Shown here piece by piece: positions 10,242 to 26,079 of a DNA stretch of 64,000 bases. Numbering within the stretch: the stretch's first letter is position 1; each line of letters opens with the position of its first letter. Position numbers and translations under genes: made by a program. Source of the stretch: Leclercia adecarboxylata. GTDB lineage: Bacteria > Pseudomonadota > Gammaproteobacteria > Enterobacterales > Enterobacteriaceae. The notes below the pieces were generated by a model. The model saw nothing but the letters and a program-made list of their open reading frames with translations. It ran no database searches and was not told where the DNA came from. The stretch covers positions 62,001 through 126,000 of the forward strand of contig DERO01000019.1 in NCBI GenBank assembly GCA_002360945.1, in the 5' to 3' direction.

Positions 10242-10295
10242 GTTATTCCCTCTCAAAAAAGAGGTGCATTCTTCCCCATAACCCCAATGAGTTAA

Positions 10296-10309
10296 TTGAT
10301 ATGAATCAA
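10296..10309 (-). promoter_or_regulatory. FNR site upstream of the dmsA-like operon
   Basis: TTGATATGAATCAA is a perfect match to the FNR consensus TTGAT-N4-ATCAA, within a longer palindrome (10294-10311). Its centre is 61 bp from the dmsA-like start codon. A class II position (-41.5) would put the transcription start near 10261, with AAGAAT (10273-10268, minus strand) as the -10. This fits anaerobic activation. Confidence 0.85.
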
Positions 10310-10490
10310 TTGAGAAAATGTGCCCTGTTTCTGACGCGTAATTTTTATTTTTTTCAGAGAAAACAATTGAGTATGTGAATGCTCTATTTCGCACACATTC
10401 ACATAACTAATGATTTAGAGGTATCCCGACGCTGCCGGTTTGCTCATTTTGCGTTTTCAACCACACTTATTTTTCATGGATTAATAACGC

Positions 10491-10537: not shown

Positions 10538-12148
10538 ATGAAAAGGATCGCCATTATCGGCGCAGGACCGACCGGTATTTATACGTTTTTCTCGCTACTG
10601 AACCAGGGGACGCCGCTTTGCATCACGGTCTTCGAGCAGGCTGAAAAAGCCGGCGTTGGCATGCCCTACAGCGACGAAGATAACTCCAGACTGATGCTGG
10701 CCAACATCGCCAGTATCGAAATCCCGCCCCTGTTTTCTACCTATATCGACTGGCTGCGTGACCAGGACGAGGCCCATCTGGCGCGCTACGGTGTGGAGAA
10801 ATCGTCCCTGCACGTGCGACAGTTCCTGCCGCGCATTCTGCTGGGGGAGTATTTCCGCGATCAGTTTGTGCAGCTGGTCGAGCAGGCAAAAAAAGCGGGT
10901 TTCGAGATCGAGGTACGCGAGTCCTGTCAGGTCACCGACGTGGAGGCCACGCCTGACGGGGTCAATATTCTGGTGGAAGATGAATCTGCGCCGACGCTGT
11001 TCGATCTGGCCGTTATCGCCACCGGGCACGTCTGGCCTGAAGAAGACAATGCGTCGCGCTCCTACTTCCCCAGCCCCTGGTCCGGGCTGATGGAGGCCAA
11101 AATTCGCGCCTGCAACGTGGGGATTATGGGCACCTCGCTGAGCGGACTGGACGCGGCGATGGCCGTCGCCGTTCAGCACGGCAAATTCATTGAGACGGAT
11201 GATGAACAGATCCAGTTCCGGCTGGACGTGGGCAGCGAAGCGCTGAAGATCGTGCTGATGTCCCGCTCGGGCATCCTGCCGGAAGCCGATTTTTACTGCC
11301 CGATCCCCTACGAGCCGCTCACCATCGCCACCGAACAGGCGATCGAGGCCGCTATCGAACAGGGCTCAGAGGGCCTGCTCGACCGTATCTTTGAGCTTGT
11401 CGTTGCCGAGCTTCAGCACGCCGACCCGCAGTGGTGCGACACAGTGGCGTTAGAGACCCTGACGCCCGATACCATTCGCGACGCCTGGTTTGCCGACCGG
11501 GAAAAACACGGCCCGTTCCGCTGGGCGGTCTCTAACCTTGACGAAGTGGAGCGCAACAAGCGCGACAAACGCACGGTGCCGTGGCGCTACACCATCCTGC
11601 GCCTGCACGAGGCCGTCGAGAAAATTGTGCCCCATCTGACAAAACAGGATAAAGCGCGCTTTAAGGTCGGTCTGGCGCGTATTTTCATCGACAACTATGC
11701 GGCCATCCCCTCACAGTCGATCCGCCGACTGCTGTCCCTGCGCGAGGCGGGTGTCATCAGCATTTTGACCCTGGGTGACGATTACGAGATGGCGGTAAAA
11801 GAGGATCGGACGGTGATCCACGCAAATGGTGAGGCCTGGTATTTCGATGTGTTTATCGATGCCCGCGGGCAGCAACCGCTCAAAACCAAAGATCTGCCGT
11901 TCCCGGTCCTGCGCCATCAGCTGGAGTCCGCCGGAGAAGAGATCCCCGACGTCGGGGACGACTACACCCTGCTGGCCCCTGATTACCTGCGCGGGAAAAT
12001 TGCCTTCGGTGCCCTGCCGTATCTGATGCACGATCGCCCCTTTGTGCAGGGGCTGGTGGTGTGCGCCGAAATTGGCGAGGCGATGGCCAAAGCCGCGGTA
12101 CAGCCCGCCTCGCGCGTTCGCCGTCGGCTGCGGTTTACTGCAGACTGA
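10538..12148 (+). CDS. ydhS: YdhS, FAD/NAD(P)-binding protein
   Basis: A 536-aa putative flavoprotein. The N-terminal dinucleotide-binding glycine motif IGAGPTGIYTF is at residues 7-17 and a second nucleotide-binding motif, GIMGTSLSGLDAA, at about 192. The sequence tracks E. coli YdhS along its whole length (for example LMLANIASIEIPPL and FPSPWSGLMEAK), and its position after valVW agrees. The reaction is not known. The GGGTGAG ribosome-binding site and ATG at 10538 are clear. Its last 14 bp overlap the convergent amidase gene, marking the edge of the accessory cluster. Confidence 0.92.
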   Translation: MKRIAIIGAGPTGIYTFFSLLNQGTPLCITVFEQAEKAGVGMPYSDEDNSRLMLANIASIEIPPLFSTYIDWLRDQDEAHLARYGVEKSSLHVRQFLPRILLGEYFRDQFVQLVEQAKKAGFEIEVRESCQVTDVEATPDGVNILVEDESAPTLFDLAVIATGHVWPEEDNASRSYFPSPWSGLMEAKIRACNVGIMGTSLSGLDAAMAVAVQHGKFIETDDEQIQFRLDVGSEALKIVLMSRSGILPEADFYCPIPYEPLTIATEQAIEAAIEQGSEGLLDRIFELVVAELQHADPQWCDTVALETLTPDTIRDAWFADREKHGPFRWAVSNLDEVERNKRDKRTVPWRYTILRLHEAVEKIVPHLTKQDKARFKVGLARIFIDNYAAIPSQSIRRLLSLREAGVISILTLGDDYEMAVKEDRTVIHANGEAWYFDVFIDARGQQPLKTKDLPFPVLRHQLESAGEEIPDVGDDYTLLAPDYLRGKIAFGALPYLMHDRPFVQGLVVCAEIGEAMAKAAVQPASRVRRRLRFTAD

Positions 12149-13448
12149 ACGCGGTTTCGCAGGCGGCGGCCAGCGCCAGCAGTTCAGACTCTTCCCCAGC
12201 GGGAGAGAGAATTTCGAGCCCTACGGGAAAGCCGCTTCGCAGAGTGCCGCAGGGGAGCGTAATGGCGGCAAAGCCGCTGATGGCCGCCAGCTCGGGCGCG
12301 CAGCCGGGCGGCATTTTCTCCAGACTGTCCGGCACCCGACCCACCGTCGGATAGAGATAACCATCGATGCGCCCCTGCTCCGCCAACAGACCGAGAGTCT
12401 GACGCAGCCGATGCCGCAGCTGCCGTCCGGCCCGCCACCGGGGCGATTTTACGTTCTCGCTGGTGAGCATCTGGATCAGCAGCGGCCTGAACTCCGGCAA
12501 ATACTGCCCGGAGGCGACAATCGCCTGGAGCCCTTCAGGCGCGCCAAGGTGCTGGTGTAACCAGGCGTCAAAAGCCACGTGAAATTCATCCAGGCTCAGG
12601 CAGGTGGCCCTCGCCACCTCGGGCAGGATCGACAGATCAACGTCGACGAGTGTCGCGCCCTGCCGTCTCAGGGTAGCGATGGCGTCATACCAGACGGCCA
12701 GCTGTTCAGGATCCTCCCCTTCCAGCGCGCGGATCACGCCGAGGCGTACGCCTTTCAGTGACAGGGGTTCAACGGCGGACGGCATCTGCCCATGGATAAT
12801 CGCATGCAGCAGGGCCGCGTCCTGCACGCTGGGCACCATCGGCCCCACCGTGTCTTTGCTCAGGGAGAGCGGCGCAATGCCCTGCATCTGCGCCCTGCGT
12901 ACCCGCGGCCTTAACCCCACCAGCCCGGTATAGCTGCATGGAATGCGGATCGAGCCGCCGGTATCGGTCCCCAGCGCCCCCTCCGCCATCCCGGCCGCCA
13001 CCGCCGCCGCGCTGCCCCCGCTGGAGCCGCCTGCAGTAAGGGTCGGAAACTGTGGATGACGCACGTCCCCGCCGAGCGAGCTGCGGGAGCGGACGTCAAA
13101 GGCAAATTCAGACATATTGGCACGGGCCAGAATAATCGCCCCGGCCTGCCGCAGCCGACGCACCACCAGGGCATCCGTTGTCGCCCGCAGCTGAGCCAGC
13201 CCGGCACAGCCCAGCGTCAGGGGCAGCCCGGCGCAGGCAATGTTATCTTTCACAATCAGCGGCACGCCGTGCAGCGGCCCGGTAAGCTGACCGCGACGGC
13301 GCAGCGATTGATACTGCGCCGCCTCAGCAAGGGCATCCGGGTTGACCCCGAGAAGGGCATTCAGCTGCGGGTTGGCGTCTATAATCGCCAGCCGCCGGGT
13401 TATCTCCTCGACAGAGTCCGTCGGAGGGATCAGCCGTTGTTTTTTCAT
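12135..13448 (-). CDS. Amidase-signature family hydrolase
   Basis: A 437-aa amidase-signature enzyme. The catalytic lysine region is LIVKDNIACAG (about residue 70), and the glycine/serine-rich signature GGSSGGSAAAVAAGMAEGAL (about 140-160) carries the cis-Ser and nucleophilic Ser of the Ser-cisSer-Lys triad. Downstream is GTDTGGSIRIP. The start MKKQRLIPP at 13448 has an AGGGA site upstream; the open frame above it is GC-rich read-through into hisD-like DNA. It is the last gene of the minus-strand catabolic arm, 52 bp after the HisD-like gene. The substrate is unknown; amide release from a transported compound is inference. Confidence 0.87.
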   Translation of the reverse strand: MKKQRLIPPTDSVEEITRRLAIIDANPQLNALLGVNPDALAEAAQYQSLRRRGQLTGPLHGVPLIVKDNIACAGLPLTLGCAGLAQLRATTDALVVRRLRQAGAIILARANMSEFAFDVRSRSSLGGDVRHPQFPTLTAGGSSGGSAAAVAAGMAEGALGTDTGGSIRIPCSYTGLVGLRPRVRRAQMQGIAPLSLSKDTVGPMVPSVQDAALLHAIIHGQMPSAVEPLSLKGVRLGVIRALEGEDPEQLAVWYDAIATLRRQGATLVDVDLSILPEVARATCLSLDEFHVAFDAWLHQHLGAPEGLQAIVASGQYLPEFRPLLIQMLTSENVKSPRWRAGRQLRHRLRQTLGLLAEQGRIDGYLYPTVGRVPDSLEKMPPGCAPELAAISGFAAITLPCGTLRSGFPVGLEILSPAGEESELLALAAACETAFSLQ

Positions 13449-13500
13449 AGCATCCCTTATTATGCCGGAGGCCAGGCCCGCGCCCGACCTCCCGTCACCT

Positions 13501-14811
13501 TTAGTCGCGCAGCCCGGAGGTGATGGCGTCCAGCGCCTCCGGACGCAGACGGATCTCCGCGGCGCGGCGGTGCCCTTGCATGCCTTCGGTACGGCTCTGG
13601 CGGATCGCCGGTTCCGCAATCGCGGCAATGCCCTGCTCGTCGATCCACTGATGGGTACAGATTTTCACATAAGCCCCGACCCACAGCCCGCCGGTATAGC
13701 GCGCCGCCGCCATGGTCGGCAGGGTATGGTTGGTGCCGCAGCATTTATCCGAGAACACCACGCTGGCATTCTGGCCGATAAACAGCGAGCCGTAATTGCG
13801 GATTTTCGCCGCCGTGCCGTGCGGATCCCGGGTATGCACCTGCAGATGCTCGGTCGCCATGTAGTCAGCGAAGGCGATCAGCTGCGCTTCGCTGTCGCAG
13901 ACCACGATTTCCCCCTGACGACGCCAGGCCTCGCCCGCGGTGGCGGCGGTAGGCAGAGACTTCAACTGACGCTCGATTTCCGCCAGGGTTCCTTCGGCAA
14001 TCGCCCGGCTGGTGGTCGCCAGCCCCACGCGGGTGTGGACGTCATGCTCGGCCTGAGCCAGCAGGTCGGCGGCAATAATGCGCGCGTCGGCGCTGTCGTC
14101 GGCGATGGTAAAGATCTCGCTCGGCCCGGCCAGGGCGTCGATCCCCACCTTGCCGAACACCTGGCGCTTGGCCTCGTTGACAAAGGCGTTGCCCGGCCCG
14201 ACGATTTTATCCACCGCCGGCACGCTTTCGGTGCCCCAGGCCATGGCGGCGATGGCCTGCGCCCCGCCGATTTTAAAGATCCGATGTGCCCCGGCCAGGT
14301 GGCAGACCGCAATCATCGCCGGGTGCGCGCCGGGCGGCAGACAGGCAATAATCTGTTCACAGCCAGCCACCGTGGCCGGCACGATGGACATAACCGGCGC
14401 GGAGAGGATTGGATAGCGGCCTCCCGGGACGTAACAACCCACCGTCTGGACGGGGATGATGCGGTGCCCCAGATGGACACCGGGCAGGGTTTCCACCTCC
14501 AGCGGCTGCATTGTGGCGAGCTGGGCCTCGGCAAAGCGGCGCACCTGCTGGATAGCAAACTCGCTGTCGCGACGGGTCTGGGGATCCATCTCGCTGAGCG
14601 CCGTTTCGATCTCCCGGGCGGTGACTTCAAACTGCGCCGGCACTACCTTATCAAACTGCTGCGAAAAGGCCCGCAGGGCCGCGTCGCCGTCGGCTTTCAC
14701 GCGCTCAATAATGGCGCTGACCGTGTCGGTTAACGACCTGTCGGCCTGCGCATCCTGCCCCTGCGGACGTTTGATCCAGCTCACCTGGTCAACCATTGAC
14801 TGTACAGACAT
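13501..14811 (-). CDS. HisD-like zinc alcohol dehydrogenase (minus-strand arm)
   Basis: A 436-aa member of the histidinol dehydrogenase family, but not in a his operon. Residues equivalent to the E. coli HisD zinc and catalytic set are present: QAEH (about 256-259), the Glu-His pair in TEHLQVHT (about 321-322), an Asp before GTNHTLPT (about 354) and EGMQGH near the C-terminus. It should therefore be an active NAD-dependent alcohol-to-acid dehydrogenase. Homologues outside histidine synthesis include sulfopropanediol 3-dehydrogenase (HpsN). The start at 14811 overlaps the upstream NTF2-like stop (TAATG). A paralogue lies in the opposite arm at 19770. Confidence 0.88.
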   Translation of the reverse strand: MSVQSMVDQVSWIKRPQGQDAQADRSLTDTVSAIIERVKADGDAALRAFSQQFDKVVPAQFEVTAREIETALSEMDPQTRRDSEFAIQQVRRFAEAQLATMQPLEVETLPGVHLGHRIIPVQTVGCYVPGGRYPILSAPVMSIVPATVAGCEQIIACLPPGAHPAMIAVCHLAGAHRIFKIGGAQAIAAMAWGTESVPAVDKIVGPGNAFVNEAKRQVFGKVGIDALAGPSEIFTIADDSADARIIAADLLAQAEHDVHTRVGLATTSRAIAEGTLAEIERQLKSLPTAATAGEAWRRQGEIVVCDSEAQLIAFADYMATEHLQVHTRDPHGTAAKIRNYGSLFIGQNASVVFSDKCCGTNHTLPTMAAARYTGGLWVGAYVKICTHQWIDEQGIAAIAEPAIRQSRTEGMQGHRRAAEIRLRPEALDAITSGLRD

Positions 14812-15950
14812 TATGCTTCCTCCATTTGACCCAGTTTGATTTGTGCCAGCAGCGCCAGGTGATCGTAAACCACCCACTCGTCGACGATTTTGCCGTTGAT
14901 AATGTGGTAGTGAGACATGCCCATCACGAACAGGCGTTCGCCGGTCGGTTTACCCAACTCGCCGTAGCCCAGATGGTGGCCCTCAATGATCCAGCGAACC
15001 GCCACCTTAGTGCCGCCCTCCTCGCACGGATTGGAGCAGATATGCTGCGGCAGCCAGGCGCCGTCGGGGATCATGCCGATCAGGGCCAGGGTCTGATGCG
15101 TCACCGACGCCGTGCCGTACAGCTCCTTCATCAGCGGACCGTGCCACTGGACGTTCGGCGCGTAGACCTCTTTGATCTTGCCCAGCATCCGGCGGTTGTA
15201 GATCTCATGCAGCCAGCGCAGGCACTGTTCTTCGGTATCGGTATGGGCAATGGAGACGTCGCAGACCATCTCCGGCGGATACTGCCCCAGCATGCGGCCG
15301 TTTTCGCCGATGTCGGTGACGCGGAAGCCCTTGTCGAACTGCTCTTTCGCCATGTTAAAGGCGATCTCATCGGTGTTGAGCCCGAGCTGCTTCATCAGGG
15401 ACATGTTGTCGCTCACCACCCACTCCCGGTAGATTTTGTTTTCGTGGATCATGCAGTCGGCCACGGTGCGGGTGACAAAGGTGCGGTTGGTCGGCTTGCC
15501 AAGATGGCTGAACTGGGTGTGGCGACCGCTGCCGGTGACCAGGTGCGAGGTATAGAAGCCGTCCACGTCGTTACCGTTCCAGATCACCTGGGTGGCCATG
15601 CCGCGGCGCTCCGGGAAGGCCACCAGGCGCTGGAGGGTATCCTGCACCACCTGCTCGCGGGTATAGAGCGTGCCCAGTGCGTTATATAACACGCAGTTGT
15701 GCGTATAGTGGGTGTAAATTAATCCCACGTCGCGTTCATCCCATATTTTATGGGTGCAGCGAACAATGTAATCGACAATATCGGTATAACAATCATCAAA
15801 TCCCCGTAAGGATTGCACGCGCTGGCGTTTCTCCGGCACTAAATCAATAAAGTCCCGGCGCTCAACCTGTAATACCGGTTCGTCGCGGGTGAGTTTATTA
15901 TTTTTCTCAGGTACGGCTGGCGCTTTATTTGTTGCTTCGGTTGAAGACAT
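14811..15950 (-). CDS. Tandem-domain NTF2/SnoaL-like protein A
   Basis: A 379-aa protein with two NTF2-like (SnoaL/ketosteroid-isomerase-type cone) domains in tandem, about residues 50-190 and 225-375. Each domain ends with a similar strand pattern: HENKIYREWVVSDNMSLMKQ in the first and INGKIVDEWVVYDHLALLAQ in the second. That internal repeat is direct evidence of duplication. The first 40 residues are polar and probably disordered. The start at 15950 has AGGAG 7 nt upstream. No signal peptide. Such folds catalyse isomerisation, cyclisation or hydration, or only bind small molecules, so function is open. Coupled to the HisD-like gene. Confidence 0.75.
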   Translation of the reverse strand: MSSTEATNKAPAVPEKNNKLTRDEPVLQVERRDFIDLVPEKRQRVQSLRGFDDCYTDIVDYIVRCTHKIWDERDVGLIYTHYTHNCVLYNALGTLYTREQVVQDTLQRLVAFPERRGMATQVIWNGNDVDGFYTSHLVTGSGRHTQFSHLGKPTNRTFVTRTVADCMIHENKIYREWVVSDNMSLMKQLGLNTDEIAFNMAKEQFDKGFRVTDIGENGRMLGQYPPEMVCDVSIAHTDTEEQCLRWLHEIYNRRMLGKIKEVYAPNVQWHGPLMKELYGTASVTHQTLALIGMIPDGAWLPQHICSNPCEEGGTKVAVRWIIEGHHLGYGELGKPTGERLFVMGMSHYHIINGKIVDEWVVYDHLALLAQIKLGQMEEA

Positions 15951-16012
15951 ATAAACTCCTGCATCTATTTTCAGACAATACGATCCCGCACCCGGAATGG
16001 ATGGAGAAGAGA

Positions 16013-16032
16013 GCCGCAATCGTTATTGCGGC
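16013..16032 (-). other. Intercistronic hairpin between the two NTF2-like genes
   Basis: GCCGCAAT, loop CGTT, ATTGCGGC: an 8-bp perfect stem in the 118-bp gap, with no T-run on the minus strand. It may stabilise or separate the lacI-NTF2B part of the transcript from the downstream part. Confidence 0.4.
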
Positions 16033-16068
16033 GGATTTAAAAAATGTTTTTAGATAAAGATACTGCGC

Positions 16069-17040
16069 TTAATTAACGATTTGTGACCAGATAGCTAATT
16101 CATCAATCCCTAAATATTCGCGAATAATGAGTCCATCGCGTAATTCCAGTTGGCTGATACCGGTAATAGAGACCGGTTTACGGGTCGGCACGCCAAATTT
16201 ACCGTAGCCGTCGTGCCAGGTCAGGAGCGACCAGCGCAGGGAAATGCGCACCGGCTCGTTGGCATCCCGACGAACGATCAGGTGGTGCAGTTGCACCTCG
16301 CTGTCTGCAAAGGAGGCCCGGTAGCCCGAAAGCAGCGCGGCGATCTCCTGCTCGCCGGTGCCGATGCCGTGCCCAGGGGCATAGAGCGTGGCGGCAGGAT
16401 GGTACAGGCCCGGCACGGTACCGCTGTTGCCCCCCGCCCACATCGTCAGATAGCGCTCCACCACCCCAGCGATCGGCCCTTCGACGTCATCCCCTTCCGG
16501 CCCACCCGCCCAGCGGGCGTCAAGGGTTTCGGCGCTTTCCCGGGTAATCCCCAACTGGTTCTGCATCACCCCGAGATTGCGGGCAAAATCCTGCACGTTG
16601 AGCCCTAACTGGGCCACAATCGCCGCCCGGTCCTGCAGGAGCCACTCCTGGCGCACGGCCCCCTCGGCACAAATGCGATCCGCCCAGGTGCGCACCCAGA
16701 CGGTTTTCCCGGTCGGCGGGCCGAAGAAGCCCTCTCCCTGATGGCGGATGCAGGCGATGGTACGCTGGGCCGCGTAGTGCTCATCCCCGGGGTTTTGCGT
16801 CGCCAGGATGTCTTCCGTCAGCACCGTACGCTGGGGGAAGCTGTGCATCGCCTCCAGGGTCAGGCGCATAAACTGCGAGAGATCGTTAAGCTGCTTCTCC
16901 GGGGTGATAAAGACCACCGGCGTGGCGTAAAAGTCGGCCAGTTGACCGATGTCCTTCTGCTCCCAGACCACGTGCGTCAGGGTGCGAATAAACTGTTGAA
17001 TGGAGTCGAACTGGGGGCTGAATCCCGGCAATCTGCTCAT
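16069..17040 (-). CDS. Tandem-domain NTF2/SnoaL-like protein B
   Basis: A 323-aa protein with two NTF2-like domains, about residues 10-150 and 190-320, distantly similar to protein A. Shared features include FDSIQQFIRTLTHVVWEQKD at the start, a closing EWLLQDRAAIVAQLGLN in the first domain and REYLGIDELAIWSQI in the second. The second domain contains SLRWSLLTWHDGYGKFGVPT, parallel to the RWIIEGHHLGYGELGKPT block of protein A. The ATG overlaps the stop of the lacI-type gene (ATGA), so regulator and NTF2-like protein are co-translated. No membrane segment. Function unknown. Confidence 0.75.
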   Translation of the reverse strand: MSRLPGFSPQFDSIQQFIRTLTHVVWEQKDIGQLADFYATPVVFITPEKQLNDLSQFMRLTLEAMHSFPQRTVLTEDILATQNPGDEHYAAQRTIACIRHQGEGFFGPPTGKTVWVRTWADRICAEGAVRQEWLLQDRAAIVAQLGLNVQDFARNLGVMQNQLGITRESAETLDARWAGGPEGDDVEGPIAGVVERYLTMWAGGNSGTVPGLYHPAATLYAPGHGIGTGEQEIAALLSGYRASFADSEVQLHHLIVRRDANEPVRISLRWSLLTWHDGYGKFGVPTRKPVSITGISQLELRDGLIIREYLGIDELAIWSQIVN

Positions 17041-18107
17041 TTGTCCTCCTGGGTCTGGAACACGTAATTACCCTCTGCATCAATTGTGCCCGTATGCGGG
17101 CGGCGCGCAGAGTGACGAACCACCAGCCTGCCCGGGACGATCACCTGCTCGGGTTCGATAGTGCCGCTGTCGATCTGCTTCATCAGTAACTCCACCGTGG
17201 CGGCGACCATCGCCTCCACCGGCTGCGAGGCGGAGGTTAACGCGTAGGATGCCCAGCCGGACGGGCCAATATCGTCATAGCCAATGATGGAGACGTCCTC
17301 GGGGATCCGCAGGCCAAACTCGTAGCGCGCCACGTCCATCACGACGACGGCCATATGGTCGTTGGCGACGAAAATGGCATCCGGCGCAGGCGCGGCGGAA
17401 AAGAGCGCGTAAGCTGCGCGGGCCGTTTGCTGCGCGTCATAGTTGCCGTTGACCACCCGGACGTCGTCAATCCCCTGCTCCTGCAGCGCGCCCAGGTAGC
17501 CGTGCTGGCGGGCAATGTTGACGGACGAATCCGCCACGCCGCCGACGAACGCAAACCGCTGGTGCCCGGCGGCCAGCAAAAACTCGGCAATCTGGCGGGC
17601 GGCCGCCTCGTTGTTACTGTTGACGCTGGAGGCCATTCCGCTCTCTTCGCTGCGGTTAAACAGCACCACCGGGATCCCGGCGGCGAGACACTCCTCCGAC
17701 AGATCCAGCGACAGCGTGACCGAAGCCAGTACGATGCCATCCACACGGTACTGCATGATCTGGTCGAAAATCCGGTCCACGTTCCCCTCGCGATCGCCGA
17801 CAAACAGCAGCAGGTGGTAGTTGAGGGTGTCCAGCTTTTGCGCCAGCGCCTCCAGCACCTGCGGGTAAAACTGATTATCAAAATAGGAGATCACCACGCC
17901 GATGATCCGCGACCGGGCGGTGTTGAGCGAACGCGCAATGGCGTTCGGCCGGTAGCCCAGCTCCCGGGCCGCCTTCAGCACCTTTTCACGCGTGGCCGGC
18001 GAGATGCTCGCCCCCGGCGTGAAGGTGCGGGACACCGCCGACTGTGATACGCCTGCCAGCTGCGCCACCTGCTGCGAGGTCACCGCTGTAAAAGTCTTAC
18101 GTTTCAT
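17037..18107 (-). CDS. LacI-family transcriptional regulator
   Basis: A 356-aa repressor. Its DNA-binding domain at residues 8-60 contains TSQQVAQLAGVSQSAVSRTF and the hinge-helix region PNAIARSLNTARS. The periplasmic-binding-protein-like core follows (VRVVNGNYDAQQT, IFVANDHMAVVVMD, VSIIGYDDIGP). The family usually binds sugar or other small-molecule effectors. It heads the minus-strand arm of the catabolic cluster and faces the MFS gene across 351 bp that hold two LacI-type inverted repeats, so it probably controls both arms and itself. Start at 18107. Confidence 0.93.
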   Translation of the reverse strand: MKRKTFTAVTSQQVAQLAGVSQSAVSRTFTPGASISPATREKVLKAARELGYRPNAIARSLNTARSRIIGVVISYFDNQFYPQVLEALAQKLDTLNYHLLLFVGDREGNVDRIFDQIMQYRVDGIVLASVTLSLDLSEECLAAGIPVVLFNRSEESGMASSVNSNNEAAARQIAEFLLAAGHQRFAFVGGVADSSVNIARQHGYLGALQEQGIDDVRVVNGNYDAQQTARAAYALFSAAPAPDAIFVANDHMAVVVMDVARYEFGLRIPEDVSIIGYDDIGPSGWASYALTSASQPVEAMVAATVELLMKQIDSGTIEPEQVIVPGRLVVRHSARRPHTGTIDAEGNYVFQTQEDK

Positions 18108-18236
18108 TACGTGTGTTCCTTATCCCTTTCGCTTCCCCATTCTGGCACAGATTCAAGGCGTTATGCCGAACACTGGCCATAAACGCCCGCAAATCTGCGT
18201 CTCAGGAAGCGGGTACTTTTTAGTCTTACACCATCT

Positions 18237-18252
18237 TTGCATGCGTATGCAA
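18237..18252. promoter_or_regulatory. LacI-type operator candidate O1
   Basis: TTGCATGCGTATGCAA is an inverted repeat around a central CG, the usual layout of LacI-family operators. It shares the half-site GTATGCA with the second candidate, 90 bp away centre to centre. Confidence 0.6.
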
Positions 18253-18327
18253 CAGCCAGAATTATTTTTTTCACAATGGTGACAAACGACCTTTACAAAT
18301 TTGAAACCTTTTCGTAACTTCAATTTT

Positions 18328-18341
18328 TGAATACGTATGCA
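18328..18341. promoter_or_regulatory. LacI-type operator candidate O2
   Basis: TGAATACGTATGCA is an imperfect inverted repeat around a central CG, with the same right half GTATGCA as O1. It lies 118 bp before the MFS start codon. Confidence 0.55.
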
Positions 18342-18458
18342 GCGCAGTTTTCACGCCGTCAATGGTACCGGGTAAATTGGGCAGTGACCCAATGGAGTGA
18401 GCCGGTAAAGTTGTACCTGGATGGTTTTAACCCATTACGTTTTAAGAGGTTCACTACC

Positions 18459-19697
18459 ATGTTTCGAGCACTGTTACGCCGACCGGAAGCCCGGCTGTTC
18501 TTTATCATCAGCGTGTTGTTTTTTATCTGCATTCACAGCATTGATGCGTTTCTGGCCCCGATGATGATCAATCAGGGGATGGAGCCGCAGGTGATGGGGA
18601 TCATCATGGGGGCCAGCGGCCTGGCGACCCTGCTGATCCGCTTCCCGCTGGGGATTGTCTCCGACGTGGTGAAGAGTCGGAAAATCTTTATCCAGTTTGC
18701 ACTGGTGCTGCCGATCGTCGCCTGGCCGCTGGCCTGGCTGGAGCCGAACGCCATTACCCTGTATCTGGCGAAAGCGGCGGACGGCGTCACCGCCGCCACC
18801 TGGGTGCTCTATAACATCCTGTTTATTCGCTATTTTGACCAGAAAGAAGCGCCTGCCGCCGTGGCGCTGCTGGCGCTGGCCGGGCCGGTGGGGGTGTTCC
18901 TGGGTAACTGCATCGGGGGAGTGTTAATTCACTATTTCGACAACAACATCGCCTTCTTCGTCTCCTGCGTCTCGGCGCTGGTGGCCCTGTTCCTCACCAC
19001 CCGCATCCGCGACGTCCACGATCCGGTCAAAGCTCCGACGCTGAAAGCCTGTGTTGCCGGTGCCCGCCTGCAGCTGGCCGACCGTTCGGTGTGGCTGATC
19101 GGTATTCTGGCGACCCTCGTCATCCTGGTGCCCTTTGCCACCCGCGATACGCTGACGCCGATCTACGCTGAACAATTGGGCGGCCGGGCCGGGATCTTAA
19201 CCCTGCTGAGCAACATCCATCTGATCTTCTATGCTCTGGCGATTGCCCTGTGCAGCAGCGTGTTTTACCAGCGACTGGGTCTGATGAAGACGGCGGTACT
19301 GGGCATTCTGCTGCAGGTGATCTCGACCTTTGGTATCCCCTTCACCAGCAATCTGTATCTGATTTATCTCCTGCAGGCGCTGGCCGGGTTCTCCTTCGGG
19401 ATGGCGTTCGCGGCCTTTATGTCCCTGAGCGTGGTCAACACCACCTCCGATGAGCAGTCGACGCGAATGGGGCTGTTCCAGACCATTTACTCCTGCGGCA
19501 TGTTCGCCGGCCCGGTGATCATGGGCGTGATGATGCAGCACATTAACCTGTCGTCCGGCTATCTGTTTATTGCCGCGCTGTCGGTTGTGGCGGCGATTGC
19601 TACCCCGCTCTCGGTGCGCTGGGTCTATTCCCGTAAAACACCGGCGACGGCTGAATTAGCGCTTAACAGCTCCCTCGCGCCCGCGCGCGACCAGTAA
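18459..19697 (+). CDS. MFS transporter of the catabolic cluster
   Basis: A 412-aa major facilitator with about 12 transmembrane helices. The loop 2-3 motif appears as RFPLGIVSDVVKSRK (about residues 61-75). The start at 18459 (MFRALLRRPEARLFF) has AGAGG upstream; an earlier in-frame ATG-like start at 18327 would overlap operator O2 and adds residues unlike MFS N-termini. It is the first gene of the plus-strand arm, so it probably imports the cluster substrate; this is inference from position. The family alone does not reveal substrate. Confidence 0.88.
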   Translation: MFRALLRRPEARLFFIISVLFFICIHSIDAFLAPMMINQGMEPQVMGIIMGASGLATLLIRFPLGIVSDVVKSRKIFIQFALVLPIVAWPLAWLEPNAITLYLAKAADGVTAATWVLYNILFIRYFDQKEAPAAVALLALAGPVGVFLGNCIGGVLIHYFDNNIAFFVSCVSALVALFLTTRIRDVHDPVKAPTLKACVAGARLQLADRSVWLIGILATLVILVPFATRDTLTPIYAEQLGGRAGILTLLSNIHLIFYALAIALCSSVFYQRLGLMKTAVLGILLQVISTFGIPFTSNLYLIYLLQALAGFSFGMAFAAFMSLSVVNTTSDEQSTRMGLFQTIYSCGMFAGPVIMGVMMQHINLSSGYLFIAALSVVAAIATPLSVRWVYSRKTPATAELALNSSLAPARDQ

Positions 19698-19718
19698 TTT
19701 TATTCCCGATTAAATAAT

Positions 19719-19732
19719 CCCGGCCCGCCGGG
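19719..19732 (+). other. Hairpin between the MFS and HisD-like genes
   Basis: CCCGGC, CC, GCCGGG: a 6-bp GC stem in the 72-bp gap, without a T-run. It is not a terminator and may be a processing or stability element. Confidence 0.35.
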
Positions 19733-19769
19733 AGGGTACCCCTCATCATAAATACAGAAGGAAGAGAAT

Positions 19770-21092
19770 GTGGCTTATCGACTTAAAACCAGTAAACCGG
19801 TTCAGGAACGTCAGGATGCGCAGCGACAAATAAGAGAAACGGTGGAACTTATTCTTGCAGATATTGAAAAGCGCGGGAATAAAGCCATTCGCGAATTATC
19901 CGTGAAATTCGATCGCTATGACCGCCAGGATTATCGTCTGAGCGAGGCAGAAATTAATGCCTGCATCAAAAAATTAAGCCGTCAGGATATTCATGATATT
20001 GAGTTCGCTCAGGAGCAGGTCTTTAATTTTGCCCGGGCGCAAAAAGCCTGTCTGCTTGACCTGGAAATAGAGACCCGCCCCGGGGTGATCCTCGGCCATA
20101 AAAATATTCCCATTAACGCGGTGGGCTGTTACGTCCCGGGCGGGAAATATCCGCTGCTGGCCTCAGCGCATATGTCGATTATTACCGCCAACGTGGCGGG
20201 CTGCTCCCGCATCGTCAGCTGTGCCCCACCGTTCGGCGGCGAGCCTGCCCCGGCCATCGTGGCGGCGCAGAAAATGGCCGGGGCCAGCGAGATCTACGCC
20301 CTGGGCGGCATTCAGGCGATTGGCGCGATGGCGCTGGGCACCGATTCCCTGACCCCGGTGGATATGCTGGTCGGCCCCGGCAACGCCTTTGTGGCGGAGG
20401 CCAAGCGCCAGCTGTTTGGCCGGGTCGGAATTGACCTCTTCGCCGGCCCTACCGAAACCCTGGTGATTGCCGACGACACCGTCGACGCCGAAATCTGCGC
20501 CACCGACCTGCTTGGTCAGGCCGAGCACGGCGTAACAACGCCTGCCATTCTGCTGACCAACTCAATGGCGCTTGCCAAAGAGACGCTGCGCGAAATTGAC
20601 CGCCTGCTGGAAAAACTGCCGACCGCCGATATTGCCCGCCAGGCCTGGCACGACTACGGGGAGATTATCGTCTGCGACAGCTACGACGAAATGCTCGCCG
20701 AAGCGGATCGCATCGCCTCGGAACACGTGCAGGTGATGACCGACCGCGACGACTGGTTCCTCGCTAACCTGACCAACTTCGGCGCGCTGTTCCTCGGCCC
20801 GCGCACCAACGTGGCCTACGGCGACAAGGTCATTGGCACCAACCACACCCTGCCGACGCAAAAAGCAGCGCGTTACACCGGCGGCCTGTGGGTCGGCAAG
20901 TTTATGAAAACCTGCACCTGGCAGAAGGTCCTCAGCGATGAGGCCACGGCAGAGATCGGCAGCTACTGCTCGCGACTGTCGCTGCTGGAAGGCTTTGCCG
21001 GACACGCCGAGCAGGCCAACGTGCGCGTGCGCCGCTACGGTCAGGTGGAGGTGCCTTACGCCACCCCGGCCCCGGTCAGAGAGAAGGTGTGA
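19770..21092 (+). CDS. HisD-like zinc alcohol dehydrogenase (plus-strand arm)
   Basis: A 440-aa histidinol-dehydrogenase-family enzyme, paralogous to the one at 13501. The zinc and catalytic residues of the family are kept: QAEH at about 250, the Glu-His pair in SEHVQVMT at about 317, an Asp before GTNHTLPT at about 350, and EGFAGH near the C-terminus. The start is GTG at 19770, reading VAYRLKTSK, with AGGAAGAG upstream. The ATG two bases earlier is in another frame. It is closest in style to non-histidine members such as HpsN, which oxidise an alcohol to an acid with NAD. The SDR gene begins 3 bp after its stop. Confidence 0.88.
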
Positions 21093-21095
21093 CCT

Positions 21096-21860
21096 ATGAC
21101 CTTTCCTGAGATGCCCTCCTTCGGCCTGCACGGCAAGCGCGCTCTGGTGACGGGCGGCTCCCGAGGGCTGGGGTTTGCCTGCGCCGTCGCGCTGGCCCAC
21201 GCGGGGGCGGAGGTGTGGATCGCCGCCCGGGATCGTCAGGGGCTGGACGACGCCGCAACCCTCGCCGCGGAACACGGGCTGGGGCTGCACCCGGTGGCGC
21301 TGGATATCACCGAGGTGACGCAGGTGGAATCGGTGCTCGCCGGGCTGCCCGCGTTCGACATTCTGGTGAACAGCGCCGGGCTGGCGCGCCACGAAGCATT
21401 TCTGGCCGTCAGTGAAGAGAATTTCGATGCAGTGATGGCGATTAACCTGCGGGCCACCTTCTTTATCAGCCAGCGGGTGGCGGCGCGGATGCGCGAGGAG
21501 CGGATCGCCGGATCGATTATCCATCTCTCCTCGCAGATGGGCCATGTCGGCGGCCCCCGCCGCAGCGTCTACTGTGCGTCGAAATTTGCCCTGGAGGGGC
21601 TCACCAAAGCCATGTCGCTGGAGCTGGGTGAAGACGGGATCCGGGTTAATACCCTGTGCCCGACCTTTATTGAGACCGCGCTCTCTGCGCCATCGCTGGC
21701 CGAGCCTGAGTTTCGTCGCTACGTGCTGGACAACATCAAGCTGCGTCGGCTGGGCAACGTCGAAGACATCATGGGCCCGGTGGTGTTCCTGGCCTCCGAT
21801 GCTGCGGGGATGATCACCGGCAGCGCGCTGATGGTCGACGGCGGCTGGACCGCAACCTGA
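21096..21860 (+). CDS. Short-chain dehydrogenase/reductase (SDR)
   Basis: A 254-aa classical SDR. The cofactor motif TGGSRGLG is at about residues 19-26 and NSAG at about 91. The catalytic Ser lies in HLSSQMGHVGG (about 143) and the YxxxK pair in YCASK (about 156-160). The family C-terminus (TGSALMVDGGWTAT) is present. It oxidises or reduces a hydroxyl/keto group with NAD(P). It lies 3 bp after the HisD-like gene and 11 bp before the hydrolase gene, so it is in the same operon. Substrate unknown. Confidence 0.92.
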   Translation: MTFPEMPSFGLHGKRALVTGGSRGLGFACAVALAHAGAEVWIAARDRQGLDDAATLAAEHGLGLHPVALDITEVTQVESVLAGLPAFDILVNSAGLARHEAFLAVSEENFDAVMAINLRATFFISQRVAARMREERIAGSIIHLSSQMGHVGGPRRSVYCASKFALEGLTKAMSLELGEDGIRVNTLCPTFIETALSAPSLAEPEFRRYVLDNIKLRRLGNVEDIMGPVVFLASDAAGMITGSALMVDGGWTAT

Positions 21861-21871
21861 GGAGTGAGACT

Positions 21872-22594
21872 GTGGATAATCACGCCCTGCCGCTGGTCCT
21901 GCTTGGCGGCACGCTCTGTAACGCCCGGCTCTGGCAGCCGGTGCTGGCCCGGCTCAATCTGTCTGGGGCGATCTGCCCCAGGCTGACGACGGACGTGTCG
22001 GCGGCGCAGGCCTCACAGCGGCTGCTGGACCAGCTGCCGCCGCGCTTCCTGCTGGCCGGGTTTTCGCTGGGGGGGATAGTGGCGCTGCAGATGGTTGCCG
22101 ACGCCCCCGGGCGCATCGCCGGACTGGCGCTGCTGTCGGTGAACCCGCTGGCCGTTCCGCCGGAAAGTGCCCCGGCGCGGCGCGAGGCGGTAAGCGCCGC
22201 CCGGCAGCAGGGGCTCACCCACTGGCTGTTATCCAGCCTGTGGCCAAAGTACGTGGCACCGTCGCGTGTGGATGACCAGGCCTTACAGGGGCTTATCTGC
22301 CGGATGGCAGAGGAGAGCGGCCTCGATACCCTGGCGACGCAGACCGAAATCGCCATTACCCGGCGGGACAATCGCGGGGCGCTGGCCTCGCTCGCCTGCC
22401 CCATTATCGTTATCAACGGCGTGTACGACCCCCTCTGCACGCCCCATCACCACCAGCTGGTGGCGGAGAGCGCCCCGCAGGCGAGGTGCGTTACCCTCGC
22501 CGCTGCCGGGCACTTCACTCTGCTTGAAGCGCCCGACGAAGTCGCGCCCCCGCTACGCCAGTGGATTCAGGAGTGTACAGATGCGCAAGAATAA
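21872..22594 (+). CDS. Alpha/beta hydrolase
   Basis: A 240-aa alpha/beta hydrolase. The nucleophile elbow GFSLGG is at about residues 64-69, the acid in NGVYDPLCTP (about 190) and the histidine in GHFTLLE (about 217). The oxyanion region LLGGTLCNARLWQPV is at the N-terminus. The start is GTG at 21872 with GGAGTGAG before it. Small esterases and enol-lactonases of this type act in ring or lactone degradation; here the substrate is unknown. Its last 14 bp overlap the aldolase start. Confidence 0.88.
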   Translation: MDNHALPLVLLGGTLCNARLWQPVLARLNLSGAICPRLTTDVSAAQASQRLLDQLPPRFLLAGFSLGGIVALQMVADAPGRIAGLALLSVNPLAVPPESAPARREAVSAARQQGLTHWLLSSLWPKYVAPSRVDDQALQGLICRMAEESGLDTLATQTEIAITRRDNRGALASLACPIIVINGVYDPLCTPHHHQLVAESAPQARCVTLAAAGHFTLLEAPDEVAPPLRQWIQECTDAQE

Positions 22595-23369
22595 ACTCAG
22601 GGCAGTGCAGGAAAACGCCGCCATTATCAACGGCTGGCTGGCGATCCCCTCCAGCTACAGCGCCGAGATCCTCGGTCATCAGGGCTATGACGCGGTGACC
22701 GTTGATCTCCAGCACGGGATGATCGACTTCGCCAGCGCCCTCGCTATGCTGCAGGCGCTCTCCGCCACCCCGGCGGTGCCGCTGGTGCGGGTGGCCGATA
22801 ACGATCCGGCGCAGATCATGCGCATGCTGGATGCCGGGGCCTACGGCATTATCTGCCCGATGATCTCCACCCCGGAAGAGGCCCGGCGCTTTGTCGCCGC
22901 CTGCCGCTATCCGCCGCTGGGCAATCGCTCTTTCGGCCCGGCCCGCGGCCTGCTGTACGGCGGGGCCGATTACCCTCAGCACGCTAATGATGAAATCCTG
23001 ACCCTGGCGATGATCGAAACCCACGAAGGGCTGGCGAACCTCGACGCGATCCTGGCGACCGAGGGGCTGGACGGGGTGTTTATCGGCCCTAACGATCTGT
23101 CCCTCACCCTGACCGGCAGCGCCAGCGCCGAATCCCGTCATCCGGAGATGCTGGCCGCCGTTGAGCTGGTGGTCAGCCGCTGTCGCCAGCAGCAAAAAAT
23201 CGCCGGGATCTTTTGTACCTCCGGCGAGGCCGCCGCCCGCCGCATCAGCGAAGGCTTCCGGTTTGTCACCCCCGCCAACGATGTCATGCAGCTTGGCCGC
23301 GCCTCCCGTGAAGCCGTCGCCCAGGCGCGCGGCAACGCCATCCCCACCACCGGCGCATCAGGCTATTAA
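22581..23369 (+). CDS. HpcH/HpaI-family aldolase
   Basis: A 262-aa class II aldolase/citrate-lyase-type TIM barrel. Family blocks are visible: VTVDLQHG (about 40), PLVRVADND (about 69), GAYGIICPMIST (about 85), the metal-binding Glu in MIETHEG (about 142) and Asp in FIGPNDLS (about 167). Members cleave 4-hydroxy-2-oxo acids to pyruvate (or a 2-oxo acid) and an aldehyde, or are related lyases. The ATG at 22581 is inside the end of the hydrolase gene (14-bp overlap), so the pair is coupled. Likely a late carbon-carbon cleavage step of the pathway (inference). Confidence 0.9.
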   Translation: MRKNKLRAVQENAAIINGWLAIPSSYSAEILGHQGYDAVTVDLQHGMIDFASALAMLQALSATPAVPLVRVADNDPAQIMRMLDAGAYGIICPMISTPEEARRFVAACRYPPLGNRSFGPARGLLYGGADYPQHANDEILTLAMIETHEGLANLDAILATEGLDGVFIGPNDLSLTLTGSASAESRHPEMLAAVELVVSRCRQQQKIAGIFCTSGEAAARRISEGFRFVTPANDVMQLGRASREAVAQARGNAIPTTGASGY

Positions 23370-23380
23370 CAGGAGAGAAG

Positions 23381-24547
23381 ATGAAAGCACGTCACATTAC
23401 ACCGGAACAGGCCAGAAGCCGTCTGGTTGCCCCTGAAGATATGGTCTCCTGCAATCTGGCGTTTATTGATTGCAAACTTCCCGGCTCGCACCTGAAGCAG
23501 AACTACTCCTTTATTGGCCCGGGCGTAACCCAGTCCTCCGCCCAGGTGGTGAATATCCCCGAGCCGCACGGCTTTAACATCGGCGCCGCGGCCATGCCAA
23601 AAGGGGTGACCAATAACCTGCACCTGCACTTCACCGCCGAAGTCTTTTTGATTCACGAGGGCACCTGGCGTTTTCGCTGGGGAGCCAACGGCGAAAACGA
23701 AGCGGAGTTCAGCGCCCCGACCATACTGTCGATTCCGACCTGGATCTTCCGCGGCTTTACCAACATCAGTAAAGAAGAGACCTGCGGCATGGTCTACACG
23801 GTGCTGGGCGGCAATAACACCGGGGGTATCATCTGGCACCCGTCAATTCTGGACGCCGCCAGCGAGTACGGCCTGTATCTGAGCAAAGAGAATATGCTCA
23901 TCGACGTCAATGCGGGCGATACCCTGCCGGAACCGGCGGGACTGCTGACCCCGCTTGCGCCGGAAGAGATCGCCGCCCTGCGTCACTACTCCGTGGAGGA
24001 GATGGGCCAGCGGGCGGTGACCGGGGAGGAGCGTCGTTGGTCTGCGGCGGGACTGCTGGATTCGGTGCTGCCGGGCCACGGGGGCGAGATTGCGCCGGTG
24101 ATTGGCTTCGGCATCAGCCAGGATAAACACGCGGCCCCCGTTATCGTCAATCCGCACGGCTTCTCAGTGGAGTGGCTGCGCCTGAAATCCGATCATGTGG
24201 TCGGTCGCCACCTGTGCCCGGACGTGCAGGTGATCATGGTCTTTAAGGGGACGCTGGAGGTAACCTGGAACCTGGAGGGCGAAGAGGTGAGCATTATCGC
24301 CCCTGAACGCTCGGTGATTTCGGTCCCGGAGAACAGCTGGCGGTCCTACCGCGCGCTGGACGGCGATATGGAGTGCATTCTCACCACCCAGGGCGATCAG
24401 CGTAAGCGCGTCTACTGGGATGAGACGATCCTGGAGCAGGCCAGAGCGGCCAATCGCTGCCTTGACCCGGATGGCTATGTGACGGCGGTGGATCTGCTGC
24501 CTGAAACGGCGAAGCGGGCGGTACGCAGACTGGAAGCGCTGCCTTAA
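23381..24547 (+). CDS. Bicupin protein with one intact metal site
   Basis: A 388-aa protein with two cupin domains. The first carries a full cupin motif 1, G-X5-HXH-X3-E-X6-G, in GVTNNLHLHFTAEVFLIHEG (about residues 75-94), so it should bind Fe or another divalent metal. In the second (about residues 280-300, RHLCPDVQVIMVFKG) the second His is Cys and the Glu is Gln, so that site is probably dead or structural. The general shape recalls bicupin ring-cleavage dioxygenases and epimerases; I cannot choose between them. AGGAGAG precedes the start. Last gene of the plus-strand arm. Confidence 0.8.
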   Translation: MKARHITPEQARSRLVAPEDMVSCNLAFIDCKLPGSHLKQNYSFIGPGVTQSSAQVVNIPEPHGFNIGAAAMPKGVTNNLHLHFTAEVFLIHEGTWRFRWGANGENEAEFSAPTILSIPTWIFRGFTNISKEETCGMVYTVLGGNNTGGIIWHPSILDAASEYGLYLSKENMLIDVNAGDTLPEPAGLLTPLAPEEIAALRHYSVEEMGQRAVTGEERRWSAAGLLDSVLPGHGGEIAPVIGFGISQDKHAAPVIVNPHGFSVEWLRLKSDHVVGRHLCPDVQVIMVFKGTLEVTWNLEGEEVSIIAPERSVISVPENSWRSYRALDGDMECILTTQGDQRKRVYWDETILEQARAANRCLDPDGYVTAVDLLPETAKRAVRRLEALP

Positions 24548-25266: not shown

Positions 25267-26079
25267 TCACGGTTTTTCGAGTTTACCCACCGGCCCCGAG
25301 TTCAGACAAGCAATATATTTCTGGACCGACCGCAGGACAATCTCCCGCGCGCTGGCGGAAATATTCTGCCCCTCAAAGGCCCCGTAGAGCCGTTCAAAGC
25401 ATACACCGTCCAGACGGGCGGCGATTTCGCTCACCTCGCTGGCCGGCAGCGGCAGCATATTCGGGTAGCTCCACATAAAGGAGACCGCGTCTTTTCCCGG
25501 CGTCACCTGCAGAATATCCCCGGCCAGCAATACGCCCCCGTCGACATTCCAGTGCAGCACCGTGCCGCCGGCAAAGTGACCGCCCAGCCGCAGCAGCCTC
25601 ACGTCCGGGGCGATCTCCAGAGAGTCCCCCTCCCAGAAGCGCAGGGCGGGACTGTCGCGCATCACCCACTGCCGATCGCTGGCGTGGAGATAGACCGGGG
25701 CATCAAAGGCCGCGGCCCAGTCCTGCATGGTGGTGTAGTAGTGCGGGTGCGAGATGGCGATAGCGTCGATCCCGCCCAGCGCGGTCACCAGCGCATGAGT
25801 AGCGGCATCGAGGTTGGCGATGCAGTCCCAGAGCACGTTTCCCTGCGGGGTGCGCAGCAGGATCGCCCGCTGACTGATGGCAAAGGCGGGGACGGTTTTG
25901 ATGCTCAGAAGATTGTCTTCGAGCTGTTGCCACTTGTTGATATGGGTGGCGGTCAGGGTGCTGAAATCGACCCACGCCTGCCCGGTCGCGGGCACGTACT
26001 GGCGTTCATCTTCGCAAATGGCGCACTGCTGCGGTTCGACGTCATAGGACGTGCCGCAGGTTTTACACAGGACGATCAT
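25267..26079 (-). CDS. Zinc-ribbon plus metallo-beta-lactamase-fold protein
   Basis: A 270-aa protein. The N-terminal 22 residues hold two CxxC pairs (CKTC and CAIC), a rubredoxin-like or zinc-ribbon knuckle. The rest has the metallo-beta-lactamase fold. The usual HxHxDH motif reads HPHYYT (about residue 110), so two metal ligands are missing, while GGHFAGG and LLAGDI are retained. It may bind one metal or none, and its function is unknown. It lies 43 bp upstream of the carbonic anhydrase gene on the same strand and may be co-transcribed with it. Confidence 0.75.
   Translation of the reverse strand: MIVLCKTCGTSYDVEPQQCAICEDERQYVPATGQAWVDFSTLTATHINKWQQLEDNLLSIKTVPAFAISQRAILLRTPQGNVLWDCIANLDAATHALVTALGGIDAIAISHPHYYTTMQDWAAAFDAPVYLHASDRQWVMRDSPALRFWEGDSLEIAPDVRLLRLGGHFAGGTVLHWNVDGGVLLAGDILQVTPGKDAVSFMWSYPNMLPLPASEVSEIAARLDGVCFERLYGAFEGQNISASAREIVLRSVQKYIACLNSGPVGKLEKP

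Follow-up and report, generated by a model that had tools for sequence, protein, structure and literature searches.

A cluster of eleven genes occupies positions 12135-24547 of the DNA analysed here, a stretch of 64,000 nucleotides from the genome of Leclercia adecarboxylata (contig DERO01000019.1; hereafter the window). The cluster probably represents an undescribed, self-contained catabolic regulon that degrades a polyhydroxylated, sugar-like compound, with a patchy distribution that suggests horizontal transfer. None of the eleven reading frames is interrupted by a stop codon, and they form two divergent arms around a LacI-type regulator, in the span and on the strands given in a preliminary description of this DNA. 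The minus arm comprises an amidase, a HisD-like dehydrogenase (HD1), two tandem SnoaL-like proteins (NTF2-A and NTF2-B) and the regulator, and the plus arm comprises an MFS transporter, a second HisD-like dehydrogenase (HD2), an SDR oxidoreductase, an alpha/beta hydrolase, an HpcH/HpaI aldolase and a bicupin. In this order, from the amidase to the bicupin, the inter-gene gaps are 52, -1, 118, -4, 351, 72, 3, 11, -14 and 11 bp. The overlaps reported earlier (ATGA, 4 bp; TAATG, 1 bp; and one of 14 bp) are all present, and the description of the genes as having almost no spacing holds for most junctions, but not for the 351-bp control region nor for the gaps of 52, 72 and 118 bp.

The evidence that carries this reading is a pair of operator-like palindromes in the region shared by the two arms, between the gene of the LacI-family regulator (17037-18107, minus strand; PF00356 and PF13377) and that of the MFS transporter. 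Related loci were collected by an alignment search of a species-level genome collection with NTF2-A; of 327 relatives, the best 80 loci were retained (29 enterobacterial and 51 others), so the counts given here describe the close end of the family. The intergenic regions of the window and of 28 enterobacterial loci were compared, L011 being excluded, as its contig begins at lacI. The first palindrome, O1 (18237-18252; TTGCATACGCATGCAA on the minus strand), is exact in all 29 regions, and a site corresponding to the second, O2 (18327-18342; TTGAATACGTATGCAG), is found 88-90 bp from O1 in all 29 with at most two mismatches. Conservation is 1.00 in O1, 0.92 in O2 and 0.52 in the remainder of the intergenic region, and O1 and O2 are the only sites in the window's genome at one mismatch or fewer. 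The transporter gene likely starts at the ATG at 18459 (18459-19697, plus strand); the longer frame that is listed for it, with a TTG at 18327, would begin inside O2.

The same palindrome emerged from distant loci. In a search run without the window's motif on 68 loci (the 51 non-enterobacterial ones and L098-L114), the top palindrome core was the same as that of the window, with CATACGTATG and AATACGTATG in 22 loci each. At one mismatch or fewer, 86 sites occur across the 51 distant loci, with at least one site in 40 of them, and none was obtained in any of five rounds of a simple two-base block shuffle. These sites often precede the genes for HD2, the cupin, HD1 or the hydrolase-NTF2 pair, and the binding protein of an ABC transporter. 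Perfect sites are found in Priestia L107 (two), Novosphingobium L106 (two) and L110 (three) and Roseomonas L112 (two); in Deinococcus, L101 has one site and L109 two at one mismatch, and L108 has none. A perfect site is present in 15 of the 20 whole genomes searched, in none of which the reversed pattern occurs. With the exception of G690, where they fall on two contigs, genomes with several perfect sites have them on a single contig, in a span of about 20 kb at most. In the regions read, only transporter genes, enzyme genes and lacI lie between the sites, apart from genes at the edges. Catabolic LacI regulons are a known kind, and here too conserved palindromes stand beside the regulator and its putative target genes. 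As the palindromes of the shared region, which we predict to be operators, are conserved in near and far relatives, it is very likely that the two arms make up a single regulon, found as a unit in several phyla, in agreement with the co-regulated bidirectional unit first proposed.

The gene set itself recurs elsewhere, as a search suggested in the preliminary description was meant to establish. All eleven families are present in 10 of the 29 enterobacterial loci, in the same gene order in nine of them (L004, L005, L007-L010, L013, L019 and L031); HD1 is in two pieces in L031, and the amidase lies at the opposite end of the cluster in L021. Both the ends of contigs and the score cut-off applied limit how many genes could be counted per locus. 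Among the 27 enterobacterial loci longer than 16 kb, HD1, NTF2-A, NTF2-B, LacI and MFS are each found in 27, the aldolase in 25, the hydrolase and the SDR in 24 each, the cupin in 23, HD2 in 22 and the amidase in 12. The 51 other loci are mostly from Alphaproteobacteria and include metagenome-assembled genomes labelled otherwise (L034, L052, L055 and L058). In the 36 of them longer than 20 kb, LacI is found in 34, HD2 in 33, the SDR in 30, HD1 in 24, the cupin, the hydrolase and the amidase in 23 each, RraA in 19, a MetE-like protein in eight, an NTF2-B-like protein in six and HpcH/HpaI in one. We also searched 16 genomes for HD1, namely 13 whose locus showed none and three with it (L012, L025 and L051). 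An HD1 orthologue at 64-68% was found in 12 of the 13 (that of L055 being the genome without), in some cases within about 10 kb of HD2 and in others on another contig; the search of the L012 genome gave no match, its HD1 being in pieces beside Ns.

In Devosia and its relatives, the genes around the sites encode a four-gene CUT1 importer, the amidase, HD2, SDR, LacI, cupin, RraA, HD1 and sometimes a MetE-like protein, and the hydrolase is in one frame with NTF2-A or adjoins it. The SDR of L139 is masked by an antisense frame in the regions read, yet is visible as L075. Across phyla, clusters were found in Deinococcus (L101, L108 and L109), Priestia (L107), Novosphingobium (L110), Roseibium (L111) and Martelella (L114). 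The cluster annotation of three Deinococcus plasmids includes a carbon-nitrogen hydrolase but no amidase. Identity to the proteins of the window is 30-32% for the SDR, hydrolase and cupin of QL22 and 50% for its aldolase, and its HisD-like proteins are 52-57% identical to HD2. A cigar-leaf Priestia filamentosa has LacI, SDR, cupin, hydrolase, aldolase, one NTF2-like protein, one HisD-like protein, two MFS transporters and an amidase, and Pantoea dispersa carries all eleven families on a plasmid. In E. coli genomes, the cluster is unmatched at the megablast level.

Several loci exhibit partial or related arrangements. L025 (Chryseobacterium sp. 18061) and L026 (Citrobacter sp. 18056) share a similar enterobacterial minus arm with an MFS gene, and the Chryseobacterium label of L025 looks wrong. 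L113 (a coral Ruegeria), L099 and L098 have an HD2-type enzyme and several SnoaL-like proteins, with no amidase or HD1 in the stretch read; a MetE-like protein is found in L113 and L099, a CUT1 transporter in L113, and frames resembling sodium symporters and TonB receptors in both L098 and L099, families such as these having been judged by eye in L098-L100. These variants possibly act on a related substrate without the amide. In Tritonibacter L103 (3-12 kb), an HD2-type enzyme and an SDR lie beside TRAP transporters, LacI and an aldolase, and in Agrobacterium vitis L102 (5.8-12.6 kb) they lie beside two genes of the fumarylacetoacetate-hydrolase family; from these settings, the substrate of HD2 may be a smaller intermediate that is shared. 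Phaeobacter piscinae L104 (9.9-17.7 kb) has LacI, CUT1 importer genes and three NTF2-like proteins, with no annotated HisD-like gene nearby.

With regard to the two dehydrogenases, HD1 (13501-14811, minus strand) and HD2 (19770-21092, plus strand) match PF00815 with 463.2 and 452.2 bits. Their best sequence matches in the PDB are dihydroxypropanesulfonate (DHPS) dehydrogenases, followed by HisD. The residue roles described for HpsN (PMC11382572) were mapped onto 45 grouped rows (23 HD1 and 22 HD2); these come from the window and from loci chosen by hand among the 80, and were labelled according to their best match. The counterparts of Gln248, His251, Glu318, His319, Asp352, Lys353 and His411 are kept in all 45, so that every row has both the zinc ligands and the catalytic Glu318, His319 and Asp352 of the HpsN type. 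In HpsN, Lys353 contacts the sulfonate (PMC11382572), and its presence here may indicate that the substrate carries an anionic group close to the end that reacts. A short motif separates the groups: it is G-R-[YF]-P-[LI] in HD1 (GRYPI in the window), G-K-[YF]-P-[LM] in HD2 (GKYPL in the window), G-R-Y-A/S-H in HpsN and G-S-A-P-L in HisD. The zinc- and sulfonate-binding His126 at the end of this motif, expected of an HpsN-type DHPS 3-dehydrogenase, occurs in 0 of 23 HD1 and 0 of 22 HD2 rows. Biosynthetic HisD was likewise rejected for the window pair; among 61 rows, G-S-A-P-L is present only in E. coli HisD and in L001, a further and best-scoring PF00815 protein of the window's genome. In the tree, HD1 and HD2 form one clade each (100/100), separate from HisD and HpsN, with long branches that make the placement of Priestia, HpsN, the 8wwe enzyme, Deinococcus HDa and HDb and L099 unsure.

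HD1 and HD2 thus resemble HpsN (PDB 8v35 and 8wwe) in fold family, zinc ligands, catalytic Glu-His pair and Lys353, but differ from it in motif and clade, and no hpsP or sulfolyase gene is recognised beside them. They resemble HisD in their PF00815 match, in scoring above the TIGR00069 hisD domain cut-off and in their catalytic residues, but HisD has G-S-A-P-L and a tyrosine at position 353. Because the catalytic residues are kept while motifs and clades stand apart from both HisD and HpsN, both enzymes should perform the four-electron oxidation of CH2OH to COOH on substrates other than histidinol or DHPS. The two alcohol oxidations and the pyruvate-type aldolase first proposed for the cluster are consistent with these residues and with the families. 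The same comparison bears on sulfonate catabolism, in which the HisD-like enzymes and the SDR would act as HpsN and HpsO on DHPS or a relative. The PDB matches, the SDR gene adjoining a HisD-like gene and the presence of Lys353 agree with it, but His126 is missing in all 45 grouped rows, the eleven genes include no hpsP zinc-alcohol dehydrogenase and no sulfolyase, and the amidase, the SnoaL-like proteins and the aldolase would be left without a role. Xsc is not above its cut-off in the genome, where CuyA was not searched. We therefore regard sulfonate catabolism as highly improbable. A search for SuyB with PF04295 gave two matches in the genome, in frames of 504 and 544 aa that by their size are perhaps sugar-acid dehydratases.

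The minus arm also encodes NTF2-A (14811-15950) and its paralogue NTF2-B (16069-17040; PF12680/PF07366), which matches the NTF2-A profile with an E value of 2.1e-23. Both domain and fold place them in the SnoaL-like superfamily. They share the domain family and the fold of the C-terminal half with the SnoaL/SnoaL2 polyketide cyclase-type enzymes, but have two SnoaL-like domains per chain, belong to a catabolic-looking regulon and, in some relatives, are fused to an alpha/beta hydrolase. Such a fusion with NTF2-A is present in 10 of the 120 relatives listed (625-655 aa), and four Devosia-type regions encode hydrolase and NTF2-A as single open frames of 658-720 aa. In the window, the hydrolase (21872-22594, plus strand; PF12697, 55.5 bits; GFSLG at residue 63) is encoded on the other arm, so the fusions tie the two arms together. 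Since the solved structures nearest to the SnoaL domain are mostly those of polyketide-pathway enzymes, and since the MFS carrier (PF07690, 114.3 bits, scored on the longer frame 18327-19697) may transport in either direction, the cluster could serve to modify or detoxify a polyketide-like or aminocyclitol natural product rather than to degrade it. This is quite unlikely, as there is no biosynthetic core gene among the eleven, and the relatives repeatedly carry aldolases and CUT1 ABC transporters of the importer type. Lignin chemistry also includes an NTF2-like enzyme, in the breakdown of diarylpropanes. The HisD-like enzymes would then oxidise the side-chain CH2OH of arylglycerols or dilignols, alongside an NTF2-like step as in diarylpropane cleavage, and the MetE-like proteins of some clusters might handle methyl groups. 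However, the regions read contain no recognisable gene for the cleavage of aromatic rings, and LacI and CUT1 are unusual for aromatics, which makes this reading very unlikely.

The aldolase (22581-23369, plus strand) belongs to the HpcH/HpaI family, with 124.2 bits for PF03328 against a cut-off of 25. At the family level it resembles the class II pyruvate aldolases HpaI, GarL and RraA/LigK, but the equivalog cut-offs are missed, both for the 4-hydroxy-2-oxoheptanedioate aldolase HpaI (182.6 against 368.8) and for GarL (157.1 against 406.75), which were rejected. HpcH/HpaI is found in 35 loci and RraA in 25, and the two are found together in 0 of 95; this mutual exclusion is consistent with both catalysing the same reaction, with a 4-hydroxy-2-oxo acid or oxaloacetate as the substrate. 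A MetE-like protein as a stand-in for the aldolase was rejected, as six loci hold both a MetE-like protein and RraA. An end product of this class would also suit the breakdown of isosaccharinate or a related branched aldonate. In such deoxy-polyol acids, two CH2OH groups, each beside a C-OH, would be oxidised, the SDR (21096-21860, plus strand; PF13561, 193.9 bits) would form a 4-hydroxy-2-oxo acid resembling HMG, a substrate of the RraA/HpaI class, and the aldolase would release pyruvate. LacI and CUT1 suit a sugar acid, but the amidase, the carbon-nitrogen hydrolase, the SnoaL-like proteins, the hydrolase and the cupin would have no obvious job, and we consider this substrate unlikely.

The amidase (12135-13448, minus strand) is of the amidase-signature family (PF01425, 276.5 bits), with GGSSGGS at residue 140 and VKDN at residue 66. 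Its best equivalog, indoleacetamide hydrolase, was rejected at 317.1 bits against a cut-off of 532. The bicupin (23381-24547, plus strand) has no sequence relative in the PDB at an E value of 0.001. It scores 25.5 for Cupin_2, its sole Pfam match, just below the cut-off of 27.2, and its predicted model matches bicupin folds. Of the family names proposed earlier, ten are thus upheld by Pfam, and that of the bicupin by its fold but not by Pfam.

The regulon would work as follows. The LacI protein would bind O1 and O2 and repress both arms until the substrate, or a product formed early, released it. The compound, sugar-like and polyhydroxylated, would be imported by the MFS carrier, or by a CUT1 ABC importer in many relatives; the combination of LacI with CUT1 carbohydrate importers points to a sugar-like molecule and bears out the imported compound first suggested. 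The amidase, or the carbon-nitrogen hydrolase in Deinococcus, would hydrolyse an amide or vinylogous amide. The tandem SnoaL-like proteins would perform acid-base chemistry next to a carbonyl and pass the product to the alpha/beta hydrolase, which would open a ring, an ester or a 1,3-diketone. HD1 and HD2 would each oxidise a different CH2OH, next to a zinc-binding C-OH or C-N, to COOH at the expense of two NAD+, the SDR would make a 2-oxo acid, and the aldolase, replaced by RraA elsewhere, would cleave this into two central metabolites, one of them an acid of the pyruvate type. For the cupin, isomerisation or oxygenation of an enolic intermediate is a possible role. In outline this recalls myo-inositol catabolism, with its dehydrogenase, dehydration or acid-base step, C-C hydrolysis, cupin-fold isomerase and aldolase; in contrast, no gene of the cluster is named as an inositol-pathway family among the matches listed, and the cluster adds CH2OH oxidation and amide hydrolysis. 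Among the matches listed, we found no pathway in the open-access literature with this gene set, with two HisD-family clades or with the tandem SnoaL/hydrolase unit, as the preliminary description had anticipated; its interpretation as a whole is partly supported.

Several observations weigh against such a regulon. Any substrate named for it is a candidate only. Only an HD2-type enzyme is present in the stretch read of Ruegeria L113, of L098, L099 and L112 and of Tritonibacter L103, and the single HisD-like protein of Priestia is of the HD1 type. L103 combines LacI, HD2, SDR and aldolase with TRAP transporters, but has no palindrome site; the same search found no site in L113 and some other loci. 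At one mismatch, 11 of the 51 more distant loci have no site, and five of the 20 whole genomes have no perfect one. In the window's genome, matches at two mismatches number 5 forward and 6 reverse against 7 and 3 in a reversed control, and at three mismatches the window has 4 matches against 2.2 by chance, so the case for operators rests on conservation and not on a single sequence. A sigma-70-like promoter was sought between the arms and none was found. Only 12 of the 27 larger enterobacterial loci and 23 of the 36 others have the amidase next to the cluster, and the amide step may therefore be optional. Finally, by comparison with the usual cupin metal motif, the bicupin is without the third metal-binding histidine and has an invariant arginine instead.

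Our boldest guess for the compound is a mycosporine/gadusol-type sunscreen, a cyclohexenone that bacteria would catabolise with this cluster. The chemistry was fitted after the fact, and the guess is rather unlikely to be right. The amidase or carbon-nitrogen hydrolase and the SnoaL-like proteins would release the amino group of the enaminone, which is a vinylogous amide, and the alpha/beta hydrolase would open the cyclic 1,3-diketone. HD2 would oxidise the ring CH2OH, which in the opened acid would stand beside a tertiary OH and a CH2-COO- group, in a DHPS-like geometry. Demethylation, by a MetE-like protein in some clusters, would expose a second CH2OH for HD1, and the product, 4-carboxy-4-hydroxy-2-oxoadipate, would be split by the HpcH or RraA aldolase into pyruvate and oxaloacetate. 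In fungal mycosporine-glutaminol, the two CH2OH groups and the amide would be in place from the outset. The proposal offers each gene a possible job, by way of the CH2OH beside the tertiary OH, the vinylogous amide, the 1,3-diketone, the methyl ether and the aldolase-class end product, and isosaccharinate-like acids, aryl-glycerols and sulfonates each employ fewer of the genes. Among the sources of the strains, leaves (Pantoea and Priestia), coral (Ruegeria) and a red alga (Roseibium) would suit it, in a tally made without a background comparison, and legumes, freshwater, soil near a factory and a human skin swab say nothing for it. No described gene family for mycosporine or gadusol catabolism was found in the open-access literature, among the matches listed.

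The regulon proposed here has the appearance of an island. In G279 and G300, two genomes of the same genus without the cluster, the flanking genes lie about 40 bp apart by their match coordinates. In the window these flanks, named from sequence, are an FAD-protein gene and a carbonic-anhydrase-like gene, one on each side. L004, L005, L006 and L008 have the same insertion site; the flanks were not seen in the available stretch of the other 25 enterobacterial loci or of Pantoea L143. The G+C content is 61.8% within the cluster and 58.2-58.3% outside. NTF2-A is present in 12 of the 60 relatives searched, all 12 among the 36 genomes of the same genus, with the window's own genome counted. At an E value of 1e-60 it is found in 14 of 295 members of the family and 7 of 398 of the phylum, in samples that overlap and include the own genome, three matches being distant relatives. 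This suggests that the cluster is an insertion relative to the two same-genus genomes; gain by transfer is the simple reading and loss in the relatives the alternative. Left of the island, a long frame (7842-10394) is molybdopterin oxidoreductase-like by eye, and L004 and L005 have it close to the island too. Immediately to the right of the island, again by eye, are a pair formed by a response regulator and a sensor kinase (26949-28893) and, beside it, an MBL-fold-like protein (25267-26079) and a small protein whose start resembles a signal peptide (26389-26871).

Two dehydrogenase clades, annotated as histidinol dehydrogenase in the public records read, are added by this cluster to the HisD superfamily. 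That a regulon of catabolic appearance, with its palindrome conserved, is present in three phyla and on plasmids suggests a compound encountered by bacteria of leaves, soil and sea, and no paper that we found links such a compound to these genes. The palindrome would provide a ready reporter for an inducer hunt, which makes the question of the substrate directly testable.

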